From positions 1-64,000 of the forward strand of contig JAHBWH010000015.1 of assembly GCA_019637115.1 (NCBI GenBank): DNA of 64,000 nt, given 5' to 3'. Of the stretch, positions 6,604-59,009 are shown piece by piece; the stretch's first letter is position 1; every line of letters begins with the position of its first letter. The position numbers and the translations under genes are program-made. Source of the DNA: Myxococcales bacterium. GTDB lineage: Bacteria; Myxococcota_A; Polyangia; Polyangiales; Houyiibacteriaceae. The notes under the pieces are model-generated. The model made no database searches. It was not told the origin of the DNA and was given only the letters and a program-made list of their open reading frames with translations.

Positions 6604-6766
6604 GGGCCAGGTCCGGTGGCCAGGTCCGATGGCCGGGTTCGATGGCCGGGTCCGATGGCCGGGGCCGATGGCCGGGGCCGATGGCCGGGTCCGATGGCCG
6701 GGTCCAATGGCCGGGGCCGATGGCCGGGTCCGATGGCCGGGTCCGATGGCCGGGTCCGATGGCCGG
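6604..6766 (+). repeat. 12-bp tandem array (GATGGCCGGGTC type), about 13 units
   Basis: Units GATGGCCGGGTC and GATGGCCGGGGC alternate with few substitutions. Related G-rich repeats (GGGCC, GGGCAG) continue to about 6900. The whole gap 6553-7223 has no gene I can support. Around 7065-7105 the DNA becomes AT-rich (AACAAAATACAAGT, ACAATTGT), which probably marks the promoter of the glycosyltransferase. Confidence 0.92.
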
Positions 6767-12209: not shown

Positions 12210-12290
12210 GTCCGTGTCCGTGTCCGCATCCGCGTCCGCATCCGCGTCCGCGTCCGCGTCCGTGTCCGCGTCCGCATCCGCGTCCGTGTC
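12210..12290. repeat. Hexamer tandem array (GTCCGY/ATCCGC), ~13 units
   Basis: GTCCGT, GTCCGC and ATCCGC follow one another without interruption between two divergently transcribed genes. It is one of the window-wide set of hexamer arrays. The rest of 12095-12407 shows no gene. Confidence 0.92.
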
Positions 12291-22668: not shown

Positions 22669-22804
<136 letters not shown>

Positions 22805-23348: not shown

Positions 23349-23495
23349 ACACGCGGACGCGGACGCCGACACGGACGCCGACACGGACGCCGACGGACGC
23401 CGACACGGACGCCGACACGGACGCCGACACGGACGCCGACACGGACGCCGACACGGACGCCGACACGGACGCCGACACGGACGCCGACACGGACG
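23349..23495. repeat. 12-bp array (GGACGCCGACAC), ~12 units
   Basis: Very regular dodecamers with one deletion near 23392. It is part of a 1.1-kb gene-free block (22626-23920) between the divergent OYE and SDR genes. Confidence 0.95.
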
Positions 23496-23579
23496 AAGGC
23501 AGACTCGGTCCGTGTCCGGCTTCGGCTTCGGCTCCGTGTCCGACTCCGCAACGCTCCTGGTACACGTGCGTGCCCGTCC

Positions 23580-23667
23580 ACGTTCACGTTCACGTTCACG
23601 TTCACGTTCACGTTCACGTTCACGTGCGCGTGCCCGTGCGCGTGCCCGTGCGCGTGCCCGTGCGCGA
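23580..23667. repeat. Hexamer array (GTTCAC) grading into GCGCGTGCCCGT units
   Basis: About nine GTTCAC units, then a 12-bp GCGCGTGCCCGT unit four times. It lies in the same gene-free block as the arrays on either side but with a different unit. Confidence 0.93.
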
Positions 23668-23769
23668 CCAGAGACGTCCGTCGGGGTTCCGCGGGGGATA
23701 GAAAGCCAAGAACTCTGACCACAGCGAAGCGCGGCTTCTTCCCACGACTCCGACTCCGACCCGTAATCC

Positions 23770-23866
23770 GACACGGACGCGGACGCGGACACGGACGCGG
23801 ACACGGACGCGGACACGGACGCGGACACGGACGCGGACACGGACGCGGACACGGACGCGGACACGA
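23770..23866. repeat. 12-bp array (GGACGCGGACAC), ~8 units
   Basis: Unit GGACGCGGACAC differs by two bases from the array at 23349. It ends ~55 bp before the SDR start, so it sits within or next to that promoter. Confidence 0.94.
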
Positions 23867-23920
23867 ACGAGGACGCCCAATCCGCCGACGCGGCGCTCGG
23901 GTCCGTGTAGGCTCCCTCCC

Positions 23921-40697: not shown

Positions 40698-40872
40698 ATC
40701 CGAGCCCGAGTCCGAGCCCGAGCCCGAGTCCGAGTCCGAGTCCGAGTCCGAGTCCGAGTCCGAGTCCGAGTCCGAGTCCGAATTCGTGACCGAGTCCGAA
40801 TTCGTGACCGAGTCCGAGTTCGTGACCGAGTCCGAGTTCGTGACCGAGTCCGAGTTCGTGACCGAGTCCGGT
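40698..40872. repeat. Hexamer array (GAGTCC) grading into an 18-bp unit
   Basis: GAGCCC/GAGTCC hexamers (~16) turn into the repeated 18-bp unit GAGTTCGTGACCGAGTCC. It ends ~15 bp from the stop of the next gene. The gap otherwise contains no gene. Confidence 0.94.
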
Positions 40873-40886
40873 CCGACGAGCGCGTG

Positions 40887-42028: not shown

Positions 42029-42156
<128 letters not shown>

Positions 42157-49785: not shown

Positions 49786-51018
49786 TCAGAACCTCACGAA
49801 GTCGTCGCTGGTGTAGGCGTCGAAGATGACGGCGCGGAGCTCGTAGCCGCTCGCGCGCAGGGTGGCGGTGAGTCGCTCGGTGACGGCCGCGGGCACGATG
49901 GAGAGCTGGTCGACGACGTCCCCGTGGCCCATCGCCCAGTTGTGCACGCGGGCGGCGAGGCAGCGGTGCACCTCGGGGTCGGCCGCCATCGCCGCGCCGA
50001 GCGCGGGCAGGTCGGCGGCCGGGACGCCGAAGCGCCAGCCCGTGCCCTCGCCATCCGGGAGCCAGTCGCCCCGCACCGCGGCGGGCGCGCCCTCGAGCGG
50101 GAGCGGCACCGCGATGTCGTTGCTCCACATGCCGTCCTCGCGGAAGTTCGCGAAGAGCGGGGCGATGTGGTTCATCGTCGCGTGGCAGTTCGCGCAGATG
50201 ACCGATGACGTGTCGTGGAAGTCGACACGGCCACCGTTGAGCGCGCCCGCGATGCTCTCGAAGGGCCACGGCGCCAGGTAGGGCGAGGGGCCGCCGACAT
50301 CCGTCGCCTCGCCGATCTCCGCCGGGTACGCCCGGCACGCGAAGGTCTCCTGGACCCAGCGCGCGCGGCGGAAGGCGAGGTTCGAGAAGAAGTGCCGCAT
50401 CACCGCCGGATCGGTCAGCACGCCCGCTTGGGCCGGCGCGTTGCTCGCGCAGTCGGCGGGCTGGAACTCACCGTCGCCGAAGGTCGGGCAGTTGCCGCTC
50501 GTCGCGGTGAAGAGCTGCGTGATGGGGCGGCCCTCGACGACGAGCTGGGTCGCGAAGTTCGGCGCCGTGTCGAGCGCGCCGCCGCCCGTCTTCATCGTGT
50601 CGCGGAAGAAGAGGCGGAGCTGGGCGATGAAGCGAGGGTCGTCGAGGAAGTCGTCGATCATCGCCGCGTATGCCGCCCGCTTGTCGGGCGCACCTTCGAG
50701 GAAGCGCACCTCGAGGAGCGTCGGCAGGTCGCCGCGGAGCCGAAGCGACGCCGTGCGGAGCGCCGTGGCGTAGTCCACCTCGCGGGCCTCGAGCCGCGCG
50801 CGCCACATGTCCGAGAGCGTGCCCTCGTCCGGCGTCGGGGCGTAGCCCGGGATGTCGGGCGTCTCGCCGGGGGTGGACGGAGCGCCGTCGAGGGTGGTGA
50901 CGGGCGCCGGCAGCTCGAGGTTGGGCTCGAGCGTCGGCACGACGCCACCGCTCGACACCGCCACGCCGTCGCATCCGAGCGCGAGCAGCAGGATGATCGC
51001 GGCCTTTTGGGTGCGCAT
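49786..51018 (-). CDS. c-haem lipoprotein with DUF1549-like region
   Basis: 410 aa from the ATG at 51018 that starts a lipoprotein signal (AAIILLLALGCDG). The segment LRTASLRLRGDLPTLLEVRFLEG with MIDDFLDDPRFIAQLRLFFRD recalls the DUF1549-type helical module of planctomycete-like exported proteins. One haem-c motif, CANCH, lies near residue 275 in DTSSVICANCHATMNHIAPLF. It starts 4 bp after the upstream cytochrome gene and is surely cotranscribed. Probably a periplasmic redox component; substrate unknown. Confidence 0.75.
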   Translation of the reverse strand: MRTQKAAIILLLALGCDGVAVSSGGVVPTLEPNLELPAPVTTLDGAPSTPGETPDIPGYAPTPDEGTLSDMWRARLEAREVDYATALRTASLRLRGDLPTLLEVRFLEGAPDKRAAYAAMIDDFLDDPRFIAQLRLFFRDTMKTGGGALDTAPNFATQLVVEGRPITQLFTATSGNCPTFGDGEFQPADCASNAPAQAGVLTDPAVMRHFFSNLAFRRARWVQETFACRAYPAEIGEATDVGGPSPYLAPWPFESIAGALNGGRVDFHDTSSVICANCHATMNHIAPLFANFREDGMWSNDIAVPLPLEGAPAAVRGDWLPDGEGTGWRFGVPAADLPALGAAMAADPEVHRCLAARVHNWAMGHGDVVDQLSIVPAAVTERLTATLRASGYELRAVIFDAYTSDDFVRF

Positions 51019-51022
51019 CACG

Positions 51023-52252
51023 TCAATCCTCCATCGAGAGCCAGCGCGAGAGCGCCGCCCGGAAATCGTCGAGCTGGGTGGTGGTGGGGAACTTGAAGTC
51101 GTGGCCCGTGAGGTCGGACGAGCGGTCGGGCGCGCGCCAGACCGAGCTCGCCGAGGGGTTCGCGGGGTTGATGACGCCGAGCACCTGGCCACAGGCGCGG
51201 CGCTGGGCGTCCGCGTTGCCCGCGTTGCCGACCCCCGTCATGTCGAGGGCCGAGGTCGCCGTCGCGTTGCCGCCCGAGTGGCAGCTCGCGCAGAAGGCCG
51301 AGAGCTGGGGCTGAGCCTGCGCCGTGAACGCGGCGACCGCGCGGCAGCCGTCCACGGGCACCTCGGGATCCTCGGGGTCCTCGGGATCGCCGCCCCCGCC
51401 GCTCCGCCCGATCGAGCCGAAGAGGAAGCCGAGCTGGGCGTCGTCGGGGAAGGCGACCAGCGAGACGCTGCCGCTCCCGATGGGCGCGCTCTCGTACGCG
51501 CCGACGCTCACCTCGATGCCGTTGAAGCGATCGACCGGGTCCGGCTCGGGCAGGCCACCGCGGTAGGTCACCAGCACCGGGTGGCGGAGCCGGACGCCGC
51601 CCTCGCCCGCGTAGACCTTGAGCTCAGCGAGGAAGACCCCAGCCGCCGTGCGCGTCGCGACGAAGGTCAGGCGCGCGCCCTCGAGCTCGGGGGCGGCCTC
51701 GGAGAGCTCGACGACGTTCAGGCCCGGCACGATGTCGCGCGGCTCGGTGGCGCCATCCGCGACGTCCTCCTCCTCGTCCCCGCCGCCCATCCGGCGCGCG
51801 GCCTCCATGCGGATCCACTCGCGGACCCGCTCCGCCTCGGACGCGGGCCAGGCGGGGCCGGCGTGAGCGCCCTTCGTCAGCAGCCGGCTCGAGGTCGGGT
51901 CGCGGAGATCGATGATCGCCGGGTAGCCGAACAAAGTCTCATAAGAGGGCGACGCGAGGAACGCAGGCCCGGTACGATCCGCGTCGTGGCAAGCCCCACA
52001 GCGGTTGTCGAGGAGCGGTTCGATGGTCGAGCGGTAGATGGCCGCAGGGTCGACCTCTTCCTCCTCCGGCGCGGCGTCCCCCGTGACCAGGCCCGCGTCG
52101 TAGGTCGACCCCGGCTGCATCTCCAGCGTGGCGGCGTTGCAGCCACCGAGGAGCGCGAGCGCGACCAGGCCGACGAGGGGAGTCGGGGCCCCGACCAAGA
52201 GGGCCGAGGGGTGCTGCGTGACGGGGTCGGTAGGGGCGTCGTGGGTACGCAT
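51023..52252 (-). CDS. Di-haem cytochrome-like lipoprotein
   Basis: 409 aa. A lipoprotein signal ends LLGGCNAA (Cys ~38; the long N-region suggests the true start could be later). Two CxxCH motifs are seen: CGACH in IEPLLDNRCGACHDADRTG (~residue 85) and CASCH in LSAFCASCHSGGNAT (~residue 320). Between them is a beta-rich domain (LTFVATRTAAGVFLAELKVY). The pattern matches planctomycete-type cytochrome modules. First gene of the operon, with a 133-bp divergent promoter region shared with the DUF4266 gene. Confidence 0.82.
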   Translation of the reverse strand: MRTHDAPTDPVTQHPSALLVGAPTPLVGLVALALLGGCNAATLEMQPGSTYDAGLVTGDAAPEEEEVDPAAIYRSTIEPLLDNRCGACHDADRTGPAFLASPSYETLFGYPAIIDLRDPTSSRLLTKGAHAGPAWPASEAERVREWIRMEAARRMGGGDEEEDVADGATEPRDIVPGLNVVELSEAAPELEGARLTFVATRTAAGVFLAELKVYAGEGGVRLRHPVLVTYRGGLPEPDPVDRFNGIEVSVGAYESAPIGSGSVSLVAFPDDAQLGFLFGSIGRSGGGGDPEDPEDPEVPVDGCRAVAAFTAQAQPQLSAFCASCHSGGNATATSALDMTGVGNAGNADAQRRACGQVLGVINPANPSASSVWRAPDRSSDLTGHDFKFPTTTQLDDFRAALSRWLSMED

Positions 52253-52385: not shown

Positions 52386-52598
52386 ATGGTGACTCGAATC
52401 CCCACCCGCCTCCTCCTCGGCCTGACGCTCGCCAGTTGCGCGACCGTCGCACCTTACGAGCGCGAGATCCTCTCGCGGCCCGACATGGAGCTCGACCGCG
52501 ACGAAGCGCTCGGGCGCGCCGAGTCGCACGCGACCGAGGTCAGAGAGGGGGCGAGCGGTGGCTTCGGCGGCGGCGGCGGAGGGTGCGGGTGCAACTGA
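52386..52598 (+). CDS. DUF4266 small lipoprotein
   Basis: 70 aa. The lipoprotein signal ends LTLASCATV. The mature peptide has VAPYEREILSRPDMELD and ends GGFGGGGGGCGCN, the unmistakable pattern of DUF4266 proteins. In other bacteria the family travels with a DUF3570 barrel, and often with a TlpA-type protein and ApbE. Here the DUF3570 gene lies two genes on. Its role is unknown; the Cys-Gly-Cys tail suggests attachment or metal binding. First gene of the plus-strand operon. Confidence 0.93.
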   Translation: MVTRIPTRLLLGLTLASCATVAPYEREILSRPDMELDRDEALGRAESHATEVREGASGGFGGGGGGCGCN

Positions 52599-53092
52599 AG
52601 GCCGTCCCCTCCTCCTCGAGCGTTTGGGTCTCGCTGAGCGTGCTGGCGCTCGTCGTCGTCACGGGCTGCAGCGCCGACGTGATCTCACCCGTCCCCGTCG
52701 CGCCCGACCGCTGCGCCTTCGAGGAGGAGGTCTACCCCATCCTCGCCCGCGACTGCGGCTTCCCCTACTGCCATGGCACCTCGGACCGGTTCTTCCAGGT
52801 CTGGGCGCCGGGGCGCGCGCGGCTCGACGCCGAGGCGACGGGCATCCTCGCGCCGCCGACCCGCGCGGAGCTCGAACGCAGCTATGATCGCGCGCGCTCG
52901 ATGCTGCGTGGCTACGACCCGGAGGGCACCCCCGACGACGCGCTGCTCCTGCGCAAGCCGCTCGAGGTCAGCGCGGGGGGCGCCGGTCACGCGGGCCGGG
53001 ACGCGCTCGGCCGGAACGTCTACGCCTCGCAGGAGGACCCACGGTGGCAGACGCTGCACCAATGGGCGCATGGAGAGCTCCGATGTCCGTGA
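52589..53092 (+). CDS. Lipoprotein with an atypical haem-like C-x4-CH motif
   Basis: 167 aa from the GTG at 52589 with GGAGGG upstream; it overlaps the DUF4266 stop by 10 bp. A signal ends VLALVVVTGCSA. The mature part begins RCAFEEEVYPILARDCGFPYCHG: the position of a cytochrome CxxCH motif is held by C-G-F-P-Y-C-H (C-x4-CH), which ordinary haem lyases would not recognise. WQTLHQWAHGEL closes it. It may bind haem in a special way or be a relative that has lost it. Confidence 0.75.
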   Translation: MQLKAVPSSSSVWVSLSVLALVVVTGCSADVISPVPVAPDRCAFEEEVYPILARDCGFPYCHGTSDRFFQVWAPGRARLDAEATGILAPPTRAELERSYDRARSMLRGYDPEGTPDDALLLRKPLEVSAGGAGHAGRDALGRNVYASQEDPRWQTLHQWAHGELRCP

Positions 53093-55416
53093 GCATCGTC
53101 GCTCGGCTGTTGGGGGTGGTCCTCTGCTTCGTCGGCGCGAGCGAGGCGCGGGCGTTCTCGTCGTCCACGCGCTTCGCCGCGCCCTTCAGCGGCGCCGAGA
53201 CTGGCGCGTGGGGCGGCGCCGGGGGCCGCTGGTTCACCGGCAGCCCCGGTGACGGCTACACGTGCGCGGTCTGCCACGGGGAGGAGCCTGCGCCGATCGA
53301 GATCTCCGGCATCCCCGAGCGCTTCGAGCCGGGCGCCACCTACACGATCGACGTCTCGTGGCCCGCGGAGGACATCGGCGCGTTCGTGCTCGAGCTGGTC
53401 GACGACGACGGACGCCCAGCCGGGAGCCTGAACGTGGTGGACGACGCCGAGGAGACGCGCTGCCCCACGGACGCTCCCGCGACGCAGGTCTGGCCGGTGG
53501 GCGAGCGCGAGGTCCTGCTGACGGAGGCTTGCGGCGCGCGGCGCACGCGGCTCGAGTGGACGGCGCCGACCACGGGCGTCGGCGCGCGCCTCTTCTTCGC
53601 GGGTGTGGTCGGCAACCGCAGCGGGGATCCCACTGGCGACGCGACGCGGGTCGAGAGCTGGGGCATCGCGCGGGTGGGCGCGCCCGCGGTCGAGGCGGGG
53701 AGCGTCGGCTGCGCCGCGGGGGGCCGGCCGGGGACGGCGCTGTGGTTGGTGGTCGGGCTCTTGGGGTGGCGGCGTCGGATCGTTTTTGGGGCCGGGTCTG
53801 GGTCTGGGTCCGGGTCTGGGTCCGGGTCTGGGTCTGGGTCTGGGTCGGCTTCCGGGTCCGGGTCCGTTTCCGGGTCCGTTTCCGGGTCGGTTTCCGGGTC
53901 CGTTTCCGGGTCCGTTTCCGGGTCCGGGTCCGGCTTTGGCTATTGCCTGGGTTTGGACGGCTCTGGGGACGTGCACGCGCACGCGCACGCGCACGCGCAC
54001 GTGGACGTGGACGTGCACGTGCACGCGCACGTGGACGCGCACGTGGACGCGCACGTGGACGTGGACGTGGACGTGGACGTGGACGTGGACGTGCACGTGG
54101 ACGTGGACGTGGACGTGGACGTGGACGTGGACGTGGACGTGGACGCGGACGTGGACGCGCGCGCGCACGTGGACGTGGACGCGCACGCGCACGTGGACGT
54201 GGACGTGGACGCGCACGCGCACGTGGACGTGGACGTGGACGTGGACGCGCACGTGGACGTGGACGTGGACGTGCACGCGCACGTGGACGTGGACGCGGAC
54301 GCTCGCGTCGGCGTGCGCTGCGGTCGCGCGCTCGCGGTCGTGCTTCTGGTCGGCGTTTGGCCGGGGGTCGTGCTTGCCGAGGACACGATCTCGGCGACGT
54401 TCTTCGTCCGTGCGGACACCGACCAGACGACCGTGGTCTCGCCCGAGCTTGCCGCGAGCCTCCGGGTCGGCGACCGGACGACCGTGCGGGCCGGGTACAC
54501 CGTCGACATCTGGACGAGCGCCTCGATCGACGTTCGAACCGCGGCGACGCGCGCCATCCGCGAGCAGCGCGACGAGATCAACGCGGGCGTCGCCCACGAG
54601 CTCGACGACGTGACGCTCGGCGTCGACTACCGCTTCAGCCACGAGCCCGACTACGTCGCGCACGGGGGCGGGCTCTTCGCGAGCTACCGCTTCGCGGACG
54701 GCAACGCGACGCTCTCCGCGCGCCTCGCCTTCGCGCAGGACATCGTGAGCCGCAGCGGCGACGACGCCTTCGAGCGCCGGCTCGGCACCTTCGGCGGCCT
54801 GCTGACCTTCACCCAGAACATCGACCCGCGGACGCTCGTCCAGCTCGCGTACGAGCTCGTGCGGCGCGAGGGTTATCAATCGAGCCCCTACCGCTTCGTC
54901 GGCATCGGCGCCGATGGGCGCTGCAACATGGCCGCCGCCCTCTGCGTCCCGGAGACGCACCCCACGCAGCGCACCCGCAACGCCTTCGTGCTCCGCGCGA
55001 AGCGCGCCTTCGGCGAGCATTGGAGCTTCGGCCTCGACTACCGCTTCTACATCGACGACTGGGCGCTCCGCGGCAACACCCTGCTCGGCACACTGGGTCT
55101 GATCCCCAAGGAGCGCTCGCTCGTGACGCTGCGCTACCGCTTCCACCACCAGACCGGCGCCAGCTTCTACTCGCCCGCGTATGGAGGAGACCTGAGCACC
55201 ATCCCTCGCTTCGTCACGCGCGACCGCGAGCTCTCGCCGCTCCACTCGCACCGCCTCGCGATCGCGTGGGAGCAGGGCATCGACCTCTCCGACGCGGGGC
55301 CCGAGCTGCGCATCACGCTCGCGCTCGGCGGCTCGACCTTCCGCTATTTCGACTTCGTCGGGCTCGAGCGCGTCTTCGCGCTCGACGTCACCCTCGCCGC
55401 CGTGGTGGTGCTCTGA
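53083..55416 (+). CDS. Haem-motif/MYXO-CTERM-like protein fused through repeats to a DUF3570 barrel
   Basis: 777 aa in one open frame from the ATG at 53083. Residues 1-~25 are a signal peptide. Residues ~26-210 have CAVCH (~57) and a Reeler-like beta domain (GATYTIDVSWPAEDIGAFVLEL), then a MYXO-CTERM-like tail: GCAAGG, a helix, and GWRRR at ~240. Instead of stopping, the frame crosses two tandem arrays giving (GS)n/(VS)n and (VD)n/(HA)n. From ~411 a second signal-like helix (ALAVVLLVGVWPGVVLA) leads into a complete DUF3570 barrel (TISATFFVRADTDQTTVVSPELA..., DYRFSHEPDYVAHGGGLFASY). A separate GTG start at 54313 is possible but has no ribosome site. Confidence 0.82.
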   Translation: MSVSIVARLLGVVLCFVGASEARAFSSSTRFAAPFSGAETGAWGGAGGRWFTGSPGDGYTCAVCHGEEPAPIEISGIPERFEPGATYTIDVSWPAEDIGAFVLELVDDDGRPAGSLNVVDDAEETRCPTDAPATQVWPVGEREVLLTEACGARRTRLEWTAPTTGVGARLFFAGVVGNRSGDPTGDATRVESWGIARVGAPAVEAGSVGCAAGGRPGTALWLVVGLLGWRRRIVFGAGSGSGSGSGSGSGSGSGSASGSGSVSGSVSGSVSGSVSGSVSGSGSGFGYCLGLDGSGDVHAHAHAHAHVDVDVHVHAHVDAHVDAHVDVDVDVDVDVDVHVDVDVDVDVDVDVDVDADVDARAHVDVDAHAHVDVDVDAHAHVDVDVDVDAHVDVDVDVHAHVDVDADARVGVRCGRALAVVLLVGVWPGVVLAEDTISATFFVRADTDQTTVVSPELAASLRVGDRTTVRAGYTVDIWTSASIDVRTAATRAIREQRDEINAGVAHELDDVTLGVDYRFSHEPDYVAHGGGLFASYRFADGNATLSARLAFAQDIVSRSGDDAFERRLGTFGGLLTFTQNIDPRTLVQLAYELVRREGYQSSPYRFVGIGADGRCNMAAALCVPETHPTQRTRNAFVLRAKRAFGEHWSFGLDYRFYIDDWALRGNTLLGTLGLIPKERSLVTLRYRFHHQTGASFYSPAYGGDLSTIPRFVTRDRELSPLHSHRLAIAWEQGIDLSDAGPELRITLALGGSTFRYFDFVGLERVFALDVTLAAVVVL
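53788..53936 (+). repeat. In-frame hexamer array (GGGTCT/GGGTCC, then TCCGTTTCCGGG)
   Basis: Codes for Gly-Ser and Val-Ser-Gly-Ser runs inside the 777-aa frame. It replaces the point where a MYXO-CTERM protein should end. Confidence 0.95.
53970..54301 (+). repeat. In-frame hexamer array (GTGGAC with GCGCAC)
   Basis: About 55 hexamers, coding for Val-Asp and His-Ala dipeptides. It is the longest array in the window. Because units are six bases, changes in copy number keep the downstream frame. Confidence 0.95.
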
Positions 55417-56894
55417 TGGACGACAAACCGATGCCTCCGATGAGCCGCTTGGATCGTCTGGCCGCCCGAGCGAGCGCGCGCGTGCGCCCGCTCGCCCTGC
55501 GTTCGGACGCGCGTGAGCCTCGAACCTCCGCGCTGGCCCCGCGATCGAGCGCGCGTCTGCCTCGGCTCACCGCGCTCGCCCCGCGATCGAGCGCGCGCGC
55601 CCTCTGGCTCGCCGCCCTCCTCGCCGCGTCGACCTCACCCGTGCTCGCCCAAGACGACGAGCCGACCGAGACCTTCGACGAGAGCGATCCGGGCGACAGC
55701 GGCGAGGACATCGACGTCAGCGACTGGGCCCTCCCCCGCGTCCTCGTGGTCGTCGGCCCGCGCTTGCATCAAGCGGTCGCGAGCCAGGTCAACGACGTGC
55801 TCCGGGGCGTCGCAGAGATCGTCGACGGGCGCTCCTACGTGCGCCGCGCTCAGCGTGAGGGGCTGCGCCCGACCAGCGACACCGCGTACGAGCAGCTGCT
55901 CGCGGAAGAAGACGTCGCGCTCGTCATCGAGCTCCAGCCTGGGCGGCTCCGCTTCATCCCCACCGTGCGCACGATCTACCGAGAGGGTCGCAACGGCTTC
56001 GTCCTGCTCGAAGAGCAGCACCCGCTCTCGGGGCTGCGCTTGCTCGGCGCCGAGCGGCGGCGCATCGCCGACGAGGTCCGGCTCGCGCTCGCGGTCACGA
56101 CGCGCCCCTCGGGTGGACCGCCGGGGCCGGGGGAGTCCTCGCTCCCGCGCGAGCTTCGGCGCCCCGCGGACGAGGAGCGCCCCCGCGACGAGGCGACCCC
56201 CGGCCGCGTGATCGAGGTCGAGCTCGCGGTGGGCGGCGGCATCGGCACGAGGAGCTTCTCGCTGCCCACCCAGGCCGGCCAGCTGCGCCTCGGCACCACG
56301 CCCTTCCCTGCCGCGCGCCTCGACGCGGGGCTGCACATCCGCCCGAGCGCCGCGAGCCGCCTGCGCGCGGGCTTCTCGCTGAGCTACTCGACGAGCGTCG
56401 GCCTGCGCACGACCGACTACCGCATCGACGGCTCCGAGCGGGAGACCGCATCGCGCTCGCAGCGACTCGACGCCGCCGTCGAGCTCGACGTGCGCCTGGG
56501 GCGCGAGCGAGGGAGCGCGGCGCTCGCCGTCGCGCTCGGGTGGAGCCTGCGACGCTTCTCGAGCGAGGCGCCCGTGACGCTGCCGGACTTCGGCCTCGGT
56601 GGCCCTCGGCTCGCGCTCGGCGTCGTGGTGCCGCTCTTCGACGGCCGCCTACGCGTCGGCCTCGTCCCCGACCTCCAGCTCCTCGTGCGCGTCTCCGATC
56701 CACTCCAGGCCGAGGGCATCCGCACGCCCGGCGTGGCGGTCGGCGGCGAGGCGACCGTCGCCGTCGCCCTCACGGACGCCTTCCTCGTGCGCCTCGCCTA
56801 CCGCGAGTCGCACGCGCTCCTCTCGAGCGAGCGCGCCGAGGGGAGCCGAGACATCGAGCGCTACCTCGCGCTCCAGCTCGTGTACGCCCCCTGA
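55416..56894 (+). CDS. Exported barrel-like protein, last gene of the DUF4266/DUF3570 operon
   Basis: 492 aa; the ATG overlaps the DUF3570 stop (TGATG). The N-terminus is unusually long and basic, with three imperfect copies of ALAPRSSAR/ALRSDAR before a helix ending STSPVLAQ, so the signal peptide starts ~50 residues in. Residues ~100-215 form an alpha/beta domain (LPRVLVVVGPRLHQAVASQVND, YVRRAQREGLRPTSD, LVIELQPGRLRFIP) similar to the exported domain of 4510-5256. Residues ~260-492 alternate strands as in an outer-membrane barrel (VELAVGGGIGTRSF..., ending LALQLVYAP). Function unknown. Confidence 0.78.
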   Translation: MDDKPMPPMSRLDRLAARASARVRPLALRSDAREPRTSALAPRSSARLPRLTALAPRSSARALWLAALLAASTSPVLAQDDEPTETFDESDPGDSGEDIDVSDWALPRVLVVVGPRLHQAVASQVNDVLRGVAEIVDGRSYVRRAQREGLRPTSDTAYEQLLAEEDVALVIELQPGRLRFIPTVRTIYREGRNGFVLLEEQHPLSGLRLLGAERRRIADEVRLALAVTTRPSGGPPGPGESSLPRELRRPADEERPRDEATPGRVIEVELAVGGGIGTRSFSLPTQAGQLRLGTTPFPAARLDAGLHIRPSAASRLRAGFSLSYSTSVGLRTTDYRIDGSERETASRSQRLDAAVELDVRLGRERGSAALAVALGWSLRRFSSEAPVTLPDFGLGGPRLALGVVVPLFDGRLRVGLVPDLQLLVRVSDPLQAEGIRTPGVAVGGEATVAVALTDAFLVRLAYRESHALLSSERAEGSRDIERYLALQLVYAP

Positions 56895-56914: not shown

Positions 56915-57057
56915 GAGGGGCTGTCGCCAGGTCGCCAGCCCCTCCCCCACGGGGCATGAAGCCCCGCGGGGCCCCCTCCCACGAGCCTACGCTCGCTGCG
57001 CTCGCTGCGCGCCGTCCGGTAGGGCGGCTTGCGATAACGGCTGAGCTTCTTCTCAGC
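56915..57057. terminator. Cluster of hairpins between convergent operons
   Basis: GAGGGGCTG (56915) pairs with CAGCCCCTC (56936); CGGGGC with GCCCCG (56950/56961); GCTGAG with CTCAGC (57040/57052). They probably end transcription from both sides. No gene lies in 56895-57052. Confidence 0.65.
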
Positions 57058-58846
57058 TCGCGGCGAGCCCCAAGACGGATCGCGCGAGCGCGCGCGCGTC
57101 CTCGCGGAGCAGCGGCAGCGCGTCGCCGTAGTCGGCTTGGCGGTCGACGCGGTACTCGCCGGGAGGCGCGAGGTCGGGGACCCAGCACGTGTGCAGCGAG
57201 AACCCGACGTCGAGCTGCGGGTGCCGCAGCCGCGCGAGCGGGCCGCGGCTCAGATCACCCGCGTCGAGGATCCAGAGCTCGTCGCCCTCGGGCCCGAGCA
57301 TGATCGTGACGAGGTAGCCTTCGCCCGGTCCGCCGTTCCGACGTGGCGCGAAGGTCGGTGACATCGGGAGCCAGCCGAAGGGCAGCTCGAGCGCGTCGAG
57401 GATCGCGAGCGAGGAGTGGTCTACCCGGAGAAACTGTCCGGGGAGCGCGACCTGCGGGAGCTCGTCGAGCGGCAAGATGCGGCTCGCTTGGTCGCGGTAG
57501 ACATCGGTGATGCGGGTCGTGAGCAGCTCGGGGTCGTAGCCGAGCGTGACCCAGTGGGACTGCCCGAGCGGTCGCGCCGGGTCGCGCTCGTCTCGCGACC
57601 AGAGCGTGACGCCGAAGAGCCGCTCGTCGTCGAGGAGCTGGCTCTCGAGCACCGCGCCCGTGCGAGCGTCGACGACGTAGCGACCATGGGGCGTGATGTC
57701 GGCGGGCATCACCATCATGCCGACGTTGCGCGGATCGACGGTCGCGCCCGAGTGGTGGACGACGTCGTGCGCGCGGATCCACTCGCTCGGATCGGCCGAG
57801 TTCTGGTGCATCAGCGCGACGACGAGGCGGTCCCCCGCGTCCCCCCGCTCGACGAGGAAGTGCGCGCTCTCGTAGGGGATCTCGACGCGCGTCGCGGTCG
57901 CCGTCGCGCCGCCCAACGACGCCTTGGGCACGACCCAGAGCACCGTCGTCGGACGCTGCGCCCGCGTGACGTCGCCGCCCGCCATCTGCTCCGCCTCGAC
58001 CATGAACGCGCCGTCGTTGAGGATGAGGTAGCGATCGGTCGTCTGGATCTGGTGGAGCGACTGCTCGATGATCACGGGCGCGCCGCTCGCGTCGATCAGC
58101 TCGGTGACCACGGGCTCGGTGCGTCCGTCCCAGACGAGCACGCGGGCGAAGGGCTCGAGCGACAGCCCGTCGATCGGCGCGGCCCAGTTCACGGTGTAGA
58201 CGCGGTCGTCGATCGGATCCCAGACCGGGTGCGCCGACGACATGTGCACCGGCAAGAGCGCGAGACCGGGCACGATGCCCTCGAGCATCGGACGCCAGGT
58301 CGAGAGCTGCCCGACGGGCGACACGACGTCGAGCGTCTCGGGGTCGATCTCCCACGGCCGCCCTGCGTCGTAGGTCGCGAGGATGCGACCGCTCGGCGAG
58401 GGCACGAGCGCAGTGTTCGCGAAGTTCCGCGCGCCGAGCTGCGGCGACATGCGCAGCTGGCCGTTGCTCCGAAACGCGAGGTCGCCCGTGGCGACCTCGT
58501 CGAGGCGAAAGCAGTCGGTGCGCAAGAGCTTGGTCTTCGCCCGGGCGCGGCCGCCCTCGAAGCGAAAGCGCATGACCATTCCGTCCCCCGTGAAGAGCGG
58601 GGTGCCGTCGCCATAGGGGACGCCGCCGACCACGAAGACGAAGCCGAGGATGTCGCTGGGCACACGACCGGCGACGAGCTCGAGCTCCTCATCGTCGATC
58701 TCGGCCCGCGTGCCGTGGAGGATGGAGTCGTGCGCGGGGCCGTCCGGCGGGAGGATGTCGACCCACGGGTCGTCCGAGCCGCATCCGATGAGCCCCCCAG
58801 CCCCCGTGAGGGCCGAGAAGCGAAGCCAATCTCGTCGTGTGAGCAC
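57053..58846 (-). CDS. Exported carotenoid oxygenase-family protein
   Basis: 597 aa from the GTG at 58846 (a TTG at 58873 and a GTG at 58855 are alternatives). The start reads LTRRDWLRFSALTGAGGLIGCG: a twin-arginine-like motif and a lipobox, so it is exported and lipid-anchored. The seven-bladed propeller shows FTGDGMVMRFRFEGG, four iron-ligand His candidates (SSAHPVWDP; SLHQIQTTDRYLILND; ESAHFLVE; GFSLHTCWVPDL), and a C-terminal dyad-like end. Relatives cleave carotenoids or related alkenes with O2. Most are cytosolic; export is unusual. Confidence 0.85.
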   Translation of the reverse strand: MLTRRDWLRFSALTGAGGLIGCGSDDPWVDILPPDGPAHDSILHGTRAEIDDEELELVAGRVPSDILGFVFVVGGVPYGDGTPLFTGDGMVMRFRFEGGRARAKTKLLRTDCFRLDEVATGDLAFRSNGQLRMSPQLGARNFANTALVPSPSGRILATYDAGRPWEIDPETLDVVSPVGQLSTWRPMLEGIVPGLALLPVHMSSAHPVWDPIDDRVYTVNWAAPIDGLSLEPFARVLVWDGRTEPVVTELIDASGAPVIIEQSLHQIQTTDRYLILNDGAFMVEAEQMAGGDVTRAQRPTTVLWVVPKASLGGATATATRVEIPYESAHFLVERGDAGDRLVVALMHQNSADPSEWIRAHDVVHHSGATVDPRNVGMMVMPADITPHGRYVVDARTGAVLESQLLDDERLFGVTLWSRDERDPARPLGQSHWVTLGYDPELLTTRITDVYRDQASRILPLDELPQVALPGQFLRVDHSSLAILDALELPFGWLPMSPTFAPRRNGGPGEGYLVTIMLGPEGDELWILDAGDLSRGPLARLRHPQLDVGFSLHTCWVPDLAPPGEYRVDRQADYGDALPLLREDARALARSVLGLAAS

Positions 58847-59009
58847 GACGAGCACCCTACCCGGGACACGCAAAAAGTCGACAGTAGAACTTCCAACAAC
58901 CTGCGTCTACTCACGGTCGCCGCGTTTCAGACGTCCCCTCGTCCGGCCACGCAGTGGCCGACGCCGAGTCATCCAGAGCGCGACCGACCTCAGGGGCTCG
59001 CCGGACGAG

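Follow-up and report, generated by a model that had tools for sequence, protein, structure and literature searches.

A probable polyprotein of two exported halves

The 64,000-nucleotide stretch of Myxococcales DNA analysed here (the window) holds a gene that, judged from its sequence and from its relatives, probably encodes a polyprotein: a mono-haem choice-of-anchor-V protein of the cell surface, joined through a predicted membrane hairpin to a DUF3570 barrel of the outer membrane. One continuous frame runs from ATG 53083 to the stop codon at 55414-55416 (777 aa, 82 kDa by the window ORF reading); GGAG lies 7 bases upstream of the ATG, and from stop to stop the frame is open from 52888. The first-pass annotation, which had described a single frame at 53083-55416 joining a CAVCH haem protein to a DUF3570 barrel, was right in both coordinates and description. 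By their predicted signals, the fused halves are exported proteins, which most relatives encode separately. The features of the gene and its cluster are as follows.

52386-52598, + strand: DUF4266 lipoprotein gene of the same cluster (Pfam PF14086, 68 bits)
52583-53092, + strand: lipoprotein with a CGFPYCHG motif, its end overlapping the start of the fusion (ORF; co-conserved)
53083-55416, + strand: fusion gene, comprising choice-of-anchor-V CXXCH domain, MYXO-CTERM-like tail, array linker, signal peptide and DUF3570 barrel
53083-53154, + strand: N-terminal signal peptide MSVSIVARLLGVVLCFVGASEARA, predicted cut after ARA (sequence, hydropathy)
53155-53712, + strand: mature choice-of-anchor-V domain with CAVCH, about 19 kDa, up to the tail Cys (NF041895; conserved CXXCH)
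53710-53712, + strand: Cys210 of the tail, where myxosortase is presumed to cut (invariant in all 15 rows of alignment A3)
53737-53778, + strand: MYXO-CTERM-like hydrophobic segment ALWLVVGLLGW, then RRR (stand-alone homologues stop just beyond RRR)
53788-53933, + strand: period-6 array GGGTCC, (Gly-Ser/Val-Ser)n, 24 copies (Tandem Repeats Finder)
53967-54301, + strand: period-6 array GGACGT, (Val-Asp/His-Ala)n, 56 copies (Tandem Repeats Finder)
54307-54378, + strand: signal peptide of the barrel, internal to the frame, with cleavage predicted between VLA and EDT (sequence)
54379-55416, + strand: mature DUF3570 beta-barrel, about 38 kDa (Pfam PF12094; model of the G006 fusion)
55416-56894, + strand: 492-aa protein with no family assigned, its start overlapping the fusion stop; it travels with the barrel (ORF; relatives)

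Residues 1-232 of the fusion run from a signal peptide through the choice-of-anchor-V domain and an invariant Cys to a short hydrophobic segment followed by RRR, with CAVCH at residues 61-65. The NCBIfam model choice_anch_V (NF041895, cut-off 42 bits) scores 45.4 bits against residues 41-190 and 41.9 bits against the whole 790-aa frame. CXXCH is kept in all the complete N-half homologues aligned, and by this conserved motif the N half is predicted to bind haem as a c-type protein. The C half matches the Pfam DUF3570 model (PF12094) with 115 bits, against a cut-off of 25, and is preceded by a second signal peptide, RCGRALAVVLLVGVWPGVVLA, directly followed by EDT.

The tail of the haem half reads GC(210)AAGGRPGTALWLVVGLLGW-RRR and has the tripartite MYXO-CTERM layout of Cys, hydrophobic helix and Arg cluster (GCAAGGRPGTALWLVVGLLGWRRR), with a hydrophobic segment of only about 11-13 residues. 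The MYXO-CTERM model TIGR03901 (cut-off 20) gave no match to the window tail; on the tails of homologues it scored 22.5 (G068), 15.9 (G007) and 13.8 (G034) bits. Nor does the tag lie at the C-terminus in the window protein, where the frame continues for 545 aa past RRR, while stand-alone haem homologues terminate as C-helix-RRR-stop. Position, invariant Cys, Arg cluster and homologues nevertheless point to a MYXO-CTERM-like tail.

An open frame alone is weak evidence of fusion in such GC-rich DNA, as a different reading frame of the window is also open for 1210 aa over the same stretch. With frames past the tail also open into antisense DNA in three relatives, we rejected the open frame as sole proof.

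Three further observations concern the surroundings of the cluster. A 42-bp repeat occupies 55489-55619, close to where the 492-aa gene begins, either within its signal region or ahead of it. A carotenoid-oxygenase-type protein (RPE65, Pfam 120.7 bits; 57056-58873, - strand) adjoins the cluster, and at 49789-52252 (- strand) lies a divergent pair encoding cytochrome-like and PSCyt-type proteins, which is kept by the cluster in several relatives.

The same join in relatives

Of the 183 genomes examined from the order, 24 have a close barrel (E up to 1e-30), and the haem-barrel fusion was seen in only 3, which belong to two genera. A first scan of the genome contigs with a single protein query gave no match. 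In G001 (same genus; MAG Prado145, JALOQC010000118.1), the halves are fused via an 18-bp repeat linker, (PSRSPT)n, that is unrelated to the window hexamers, and in G006 (another genus; Sandaracinus sp. NAT131 MAG, PABA01000035.1) the fusion has no array (...GAGALALLLLALLALRRRPTIAALLALVGVALFSPRVARADEVAAGLY...), a few residues only lying between tail and signal core. Whatever the length of the linker (a few, 55 or 175 aa), all three fusions join at one point, behind the tail RRR and ahead of the barrel signal peptide. In the trees, the three fused barrels form one clade (support 100/99) and the N halves group with 80/76. The stop that the first-pass annotation had proposed to look for between the halves of orthologues is thus absent from G001 and G006, which are fused in frame; in the other genomes haem and barrel genes are separate, often within one cluster of variable gene order that also contains DUF4266, a CxxxCH lipoprotein and the 492-aa protein.

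The relatives also bear on whether the window encodes two proteins after all, namely a haem protein with a useless read-through tail and a barrel that starts at GTG 54313 or at another GTG of the array. Initiation at GTG 54313 would yield MRCGRALAVVLLVGVWPGVVLA, a good signal peptide, and about 45 NTG codons lie in frame between the window tail Cys and the barrel, GTG being the Val codon of the array and recurring there every six bases. Stop-less tails that read into antisense DNA do occur in relatives. The window alone thus permits internal initiation, but there is no Shine-Dalgarno-like sequence upstream of GTG 54313 (GGACGCTCGCGTCGGC), as had been noted at first pass. In G006, moreover, no start codon precedes the signal core, the only NTG codon between tail helix and barrel being a TTG inside that core; G001 has a single ATG between tail and barrel, without a ribosome-binding site; and the analogous DUF4266 fusions of G291 and G293, described below, are without any start codon. 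Given the situation in G006 and G001, internal initiation in the window is unlikely. The earlier suggestion that the barrel may be made only as a fusion, or cut at the MYXO-CTERM cysteine, is supported by these observations: the fused chain is probably the only source of the barrel, and cleavage is to be expected at the MYXO-CTERM. We infer that the haem-barrel gene is likely translated as one chain.

The repeat arrays and the age of the fusion

The two arrays of the window, separated by 33 bases, are of a kind ordinary for this genome. In 438 kb we found 60 microsatellite-like arrays (13.7 per 100 kb, about one every 7 kb), 29 of them of period 6 and others with periods that include some not divisible by three; by a rough coding score, the majority are not within one coding frame, and they lie mostly outside genes. 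Further short-period arrays (6, 12 and 13 bases) are found in the window at 6605-6766, 12210-12290, 22671-22804, 23351-23874, 40699-40876 and 42029-42153, and hexamers of the GGACGT/ACGTGG type also occur on other contigs of this genome. A weak Pfam match to Vitellinogen and matches to MSCRAMM proteins were rejected, as both fall on the arrays and are compositional.

The first-pass annotation had read the arrays as a repeat-driven gene fusion in progress, in which hexamer expansion removed a stop codon and is now fusing two genes. The arrays do sit exactly between the halves of the window gene, and a different array occupies this place in G001. However, G006 is fused with no array (a loss of the array there being possible), the fused barrels form one clade over two genera, and this genome has many arrays, most of them between genes, so that we consider fusion by hexamer expansion highly improbable. 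As G001 has an unrelated repeat, G006 has none and the three barrels are one clade, the fusion probably predates its arrays, which were gained inside, or tolerated in, a pre-existing linker.

Other partners behind the same tail

With the N-half alignment as query, we searched 317 genomes from the class and examined 41 readable tails of the haem family. Fourteen of these tails are fused in frame to an exported partner, or 13 of 40 without G236, the inclusion of which is biased because it was found via a junction profile (see below). The partner is DUF3570 in 3 cases and DUF4266 in eight genomes of family f29, among them G296 (matching Plesiocystis pacifica SIR-1) and G297 (matching Enhygromyxa salina SWB005), and in G236 of family f22. 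In G040 it is a DUF2271 protein (L063, G040:C57, 3191-4813; Pfam 33.6 bits, cut-off 27.3) with a lipoprotein-like signal of its own, and in G273 another lipoprotein. That the same tail joins other partners with no array also speaks against a fusion driven by repeats.

The junction of the f29 fusions is compact (...GAPPWWALLLLT-RRRRR-AAALLGLLSLGTGC-ARVQPYERGRLAQPDM). In G291 and G293 there is not one ATG, GTG or TTG from the tail Cys to the lipobox Cys; barring initiation at a rarer start codon, a DUF4266 protein with a functional signal could therefore come only from the fused chain. The codons for RRRRR differ by silent changes only across six g137 genomes, and each of these genomes has one additional DUF4266 copy. 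As a control from the same clusters, all 25 barrel C-termini end within two residues of the homologous residue and none is fused. The difference between tails and barrel C-termini gives p = 0.0005 (Fisher test) when counted by genomes, which are not independent as six are congeners, and p = 0.054 when counted by five fusion events.

A separate observation is that the haem frame remains open for hundreds of codons beyond the tail, antisense to a convergent gene, in L059 (G040:C154, second copy), L228 (G235) and L230 (G232).

Probable processing of the chain and the predicted structure of its parts

It is rather likely that the chain is resolved into two proteins by signal peptidase and myxosortase. 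The first signal peptide would export the haem domain, until the tail helix halts transfer and leaves RRR in the cytoplasm, where the linker (of whichever length) would form a loop. The second hydrophobic segment would then resume export, and signal peptidase I would release the barrel, which would reach the outer membrane via BAM. Myxosortase would cleave behind the tail Cys, and the haem protein, once lipidated, would be carried to the surface through the type II pathway. The expected products are proteins of about 19 kDa and about 38 kDa, plus a 22-kDa hairpin remainder. This hairpin, array included, would be a by-product of processing, which would explain why arrays of any sequence are tolerated provided that they keep the frame.

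Modelled with AlphaFold2 (mean pLDDT 79.5), the G006 fusion has a beta-sandwich as its N part, with a Foldseek match to the F-spondin reeler domain 2zot (1.9e-5). The predicted junction consists of two adjacent short helices, at 235-245 and 251-263, of low confidence, and is followed by a barrel at residues 272-614 with pLDDT mostly over 90. The top Foldseek match of the barrel is 6r2q chain B, of the Mtr complex. We do not claim an MtrB-type conduit, as VIA-align ranks many unrelated barrels equally high, and for the same reason no function was read from the barrel model.

One might also envisage that the chain stays uncut, as a barrel with a surface haem domain tethered by a long flexible linker, the whole acting as one electron-transfer unit. 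The single open frame, the redox associations of both parts (CXXCH in one; the DUF3570 family in the other, PMC8238504) and the first-ranked Mtr barrel are consistent with such a unit. Between the parts, however, lie two membrane segments, the second ending in a signal-peptidase-like site; the G006 junction is too short to contain a linker; the stand-alone versions are separate proteins; and many other barrels match just as well. We hold the uncut chain to be very unlikely, and processing into two proteins remains our preferred reading.

DUF3570 and DUF2271 proteins have been described as substrates of ApbE flavinylation (PMC8238504). The window barrel contains one [S/T]GA[S/T] site, TGAS, and the motif is kept at that place in 1 of the 21 rows of alignment A2, so that flavinylation of this barrel subfamily was rejected. 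We identified no ApbE, thioredoxin or DsbD genes beside the window cluster, and the one ApbE of the genome is on another contig. The CXXCH motifs and the family associations suggest a redox role for the cluster.

Similar joins and possible polyproteins across the class

A junction profile (A4) built from the fusions was searched in the class. The compact fusions already known were recovered with E values of up to 8e-15, and long, stop-free junctions were also matched in unrelated families, including protease-like, esterase-like, glucoamylase-like and other exported proteins, in which a Cys-helix-RRR tail is immediately followed by a lipoprotein signal; the family names were assigned by reading, not by profile scan. 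Not all matches are such joins: G098 looks like a polytopic membrane protein, and in G298 the tail is followed by a stop. Internal starts are possible in some, such as G312 (ATGATG after RRRGRS) and G236 (GTG before RRRR). As the profile was made from fusions, its matches give no rate. In one locus, L280 (G295:C309), a glucoamylase-like and an amylase-like part, so named by reading, are joined via a MYXO-CTERM-like tail and a lipoprotein signal in a 1498-aa frame.

It is conceivable, at somewhat less than even chances, that polyproteins have formed repeatedly at MYXO-CTERM tails in the class, giving rise to widespread polyproteins that are resolved by myxosortase and by signal peptidase I or II. 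Adjacent exported genes could fuse without loss of function because the tail would be removed in the membrane, and its Arg cluster could at the same time begin the signal peptide that follows.

Relation to known systems

In TraA-type MYXO-CTERM surface proteins, the substrates of the myxosortase MrtX, the invariant Cys, hydrophobic segment and Arg cluster are as in the window tail, but the tag ends the protein, whereas in the window a second exported protein follows in frame. In the fbcH cytochrome b/c1 polyprotein of Bradyrhizobium, two redox proteins are made as one chain and separated at an internal signal sequence; no sorting tag or sortase-type cut is known at the end of the first protein, unlike the tail and the predicted cut of the window fusion. 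The window gene shares the internal signal peptide, present by sequence, and its cut in vivo is predicted.

Internal MYXO-CTERM motifs occur in rare cases, and internal sorting tags have been reported to be functional (Guo, Haft and Wall 2025, PMC11980579). The same study shows that M. xanthus MrtX is functional in E. coli. MXAN_5598 of Myxococcus xanthus combines an adhesin part with an outer-membrane barrel, a MYXO-CTERM standing between them; it was proposed that two genes have fused here and that the N part is processed (PMC11980579). Following the definition of this type in that study, the window gene has an exported domain, a MYXO-CTERM-like tail and a barrel in one frame, and it resembles MXAN_5598 in that the internal tag stands behind the exported N part and ahead of the outer-membrane barrel. 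The N part of MXAN_5598, however, is a large adhesin, and OmpA domains follow its barrel, while the window gene combines a mono-haem choice-of-anchor-V domain and a DUF3570 barrel through an array linker. One protein with an internal MYXO-CTERM and a barrel is thus already in print, and the window adds a further case with a different domain pair. The join in MXAN_5598 was described as rare, whereas joins of its kind turn up repeatedly in our survey, with several different partners. This recurrence behind the tail of one family, the junctions devoid of start codons and the matches in further families appear to go beyond prior work.

The flavinylation clusters already reported (PMC8238504) are similar in placing a DUF3570 barrel beside DUF4266, and a DUF2271 protein is present in some relatives; they differ in that cytochrome-like proteins are found here instead and that the present subfamily does not conserve the flavinylation motif.

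If our reading is true, two envelope proteins would be supplied in equal amounts from one chain, in which a sorting tag stands directly before a signal peptide, and the junction of about 35 residues could act as a self-resolving linker. Gene callers and annotation would hide the second protein behind an "internal" MYXO-CTERM. Processing of this sort would also offer a testable reason for the survival of low-complexity arrays within a coding frame.
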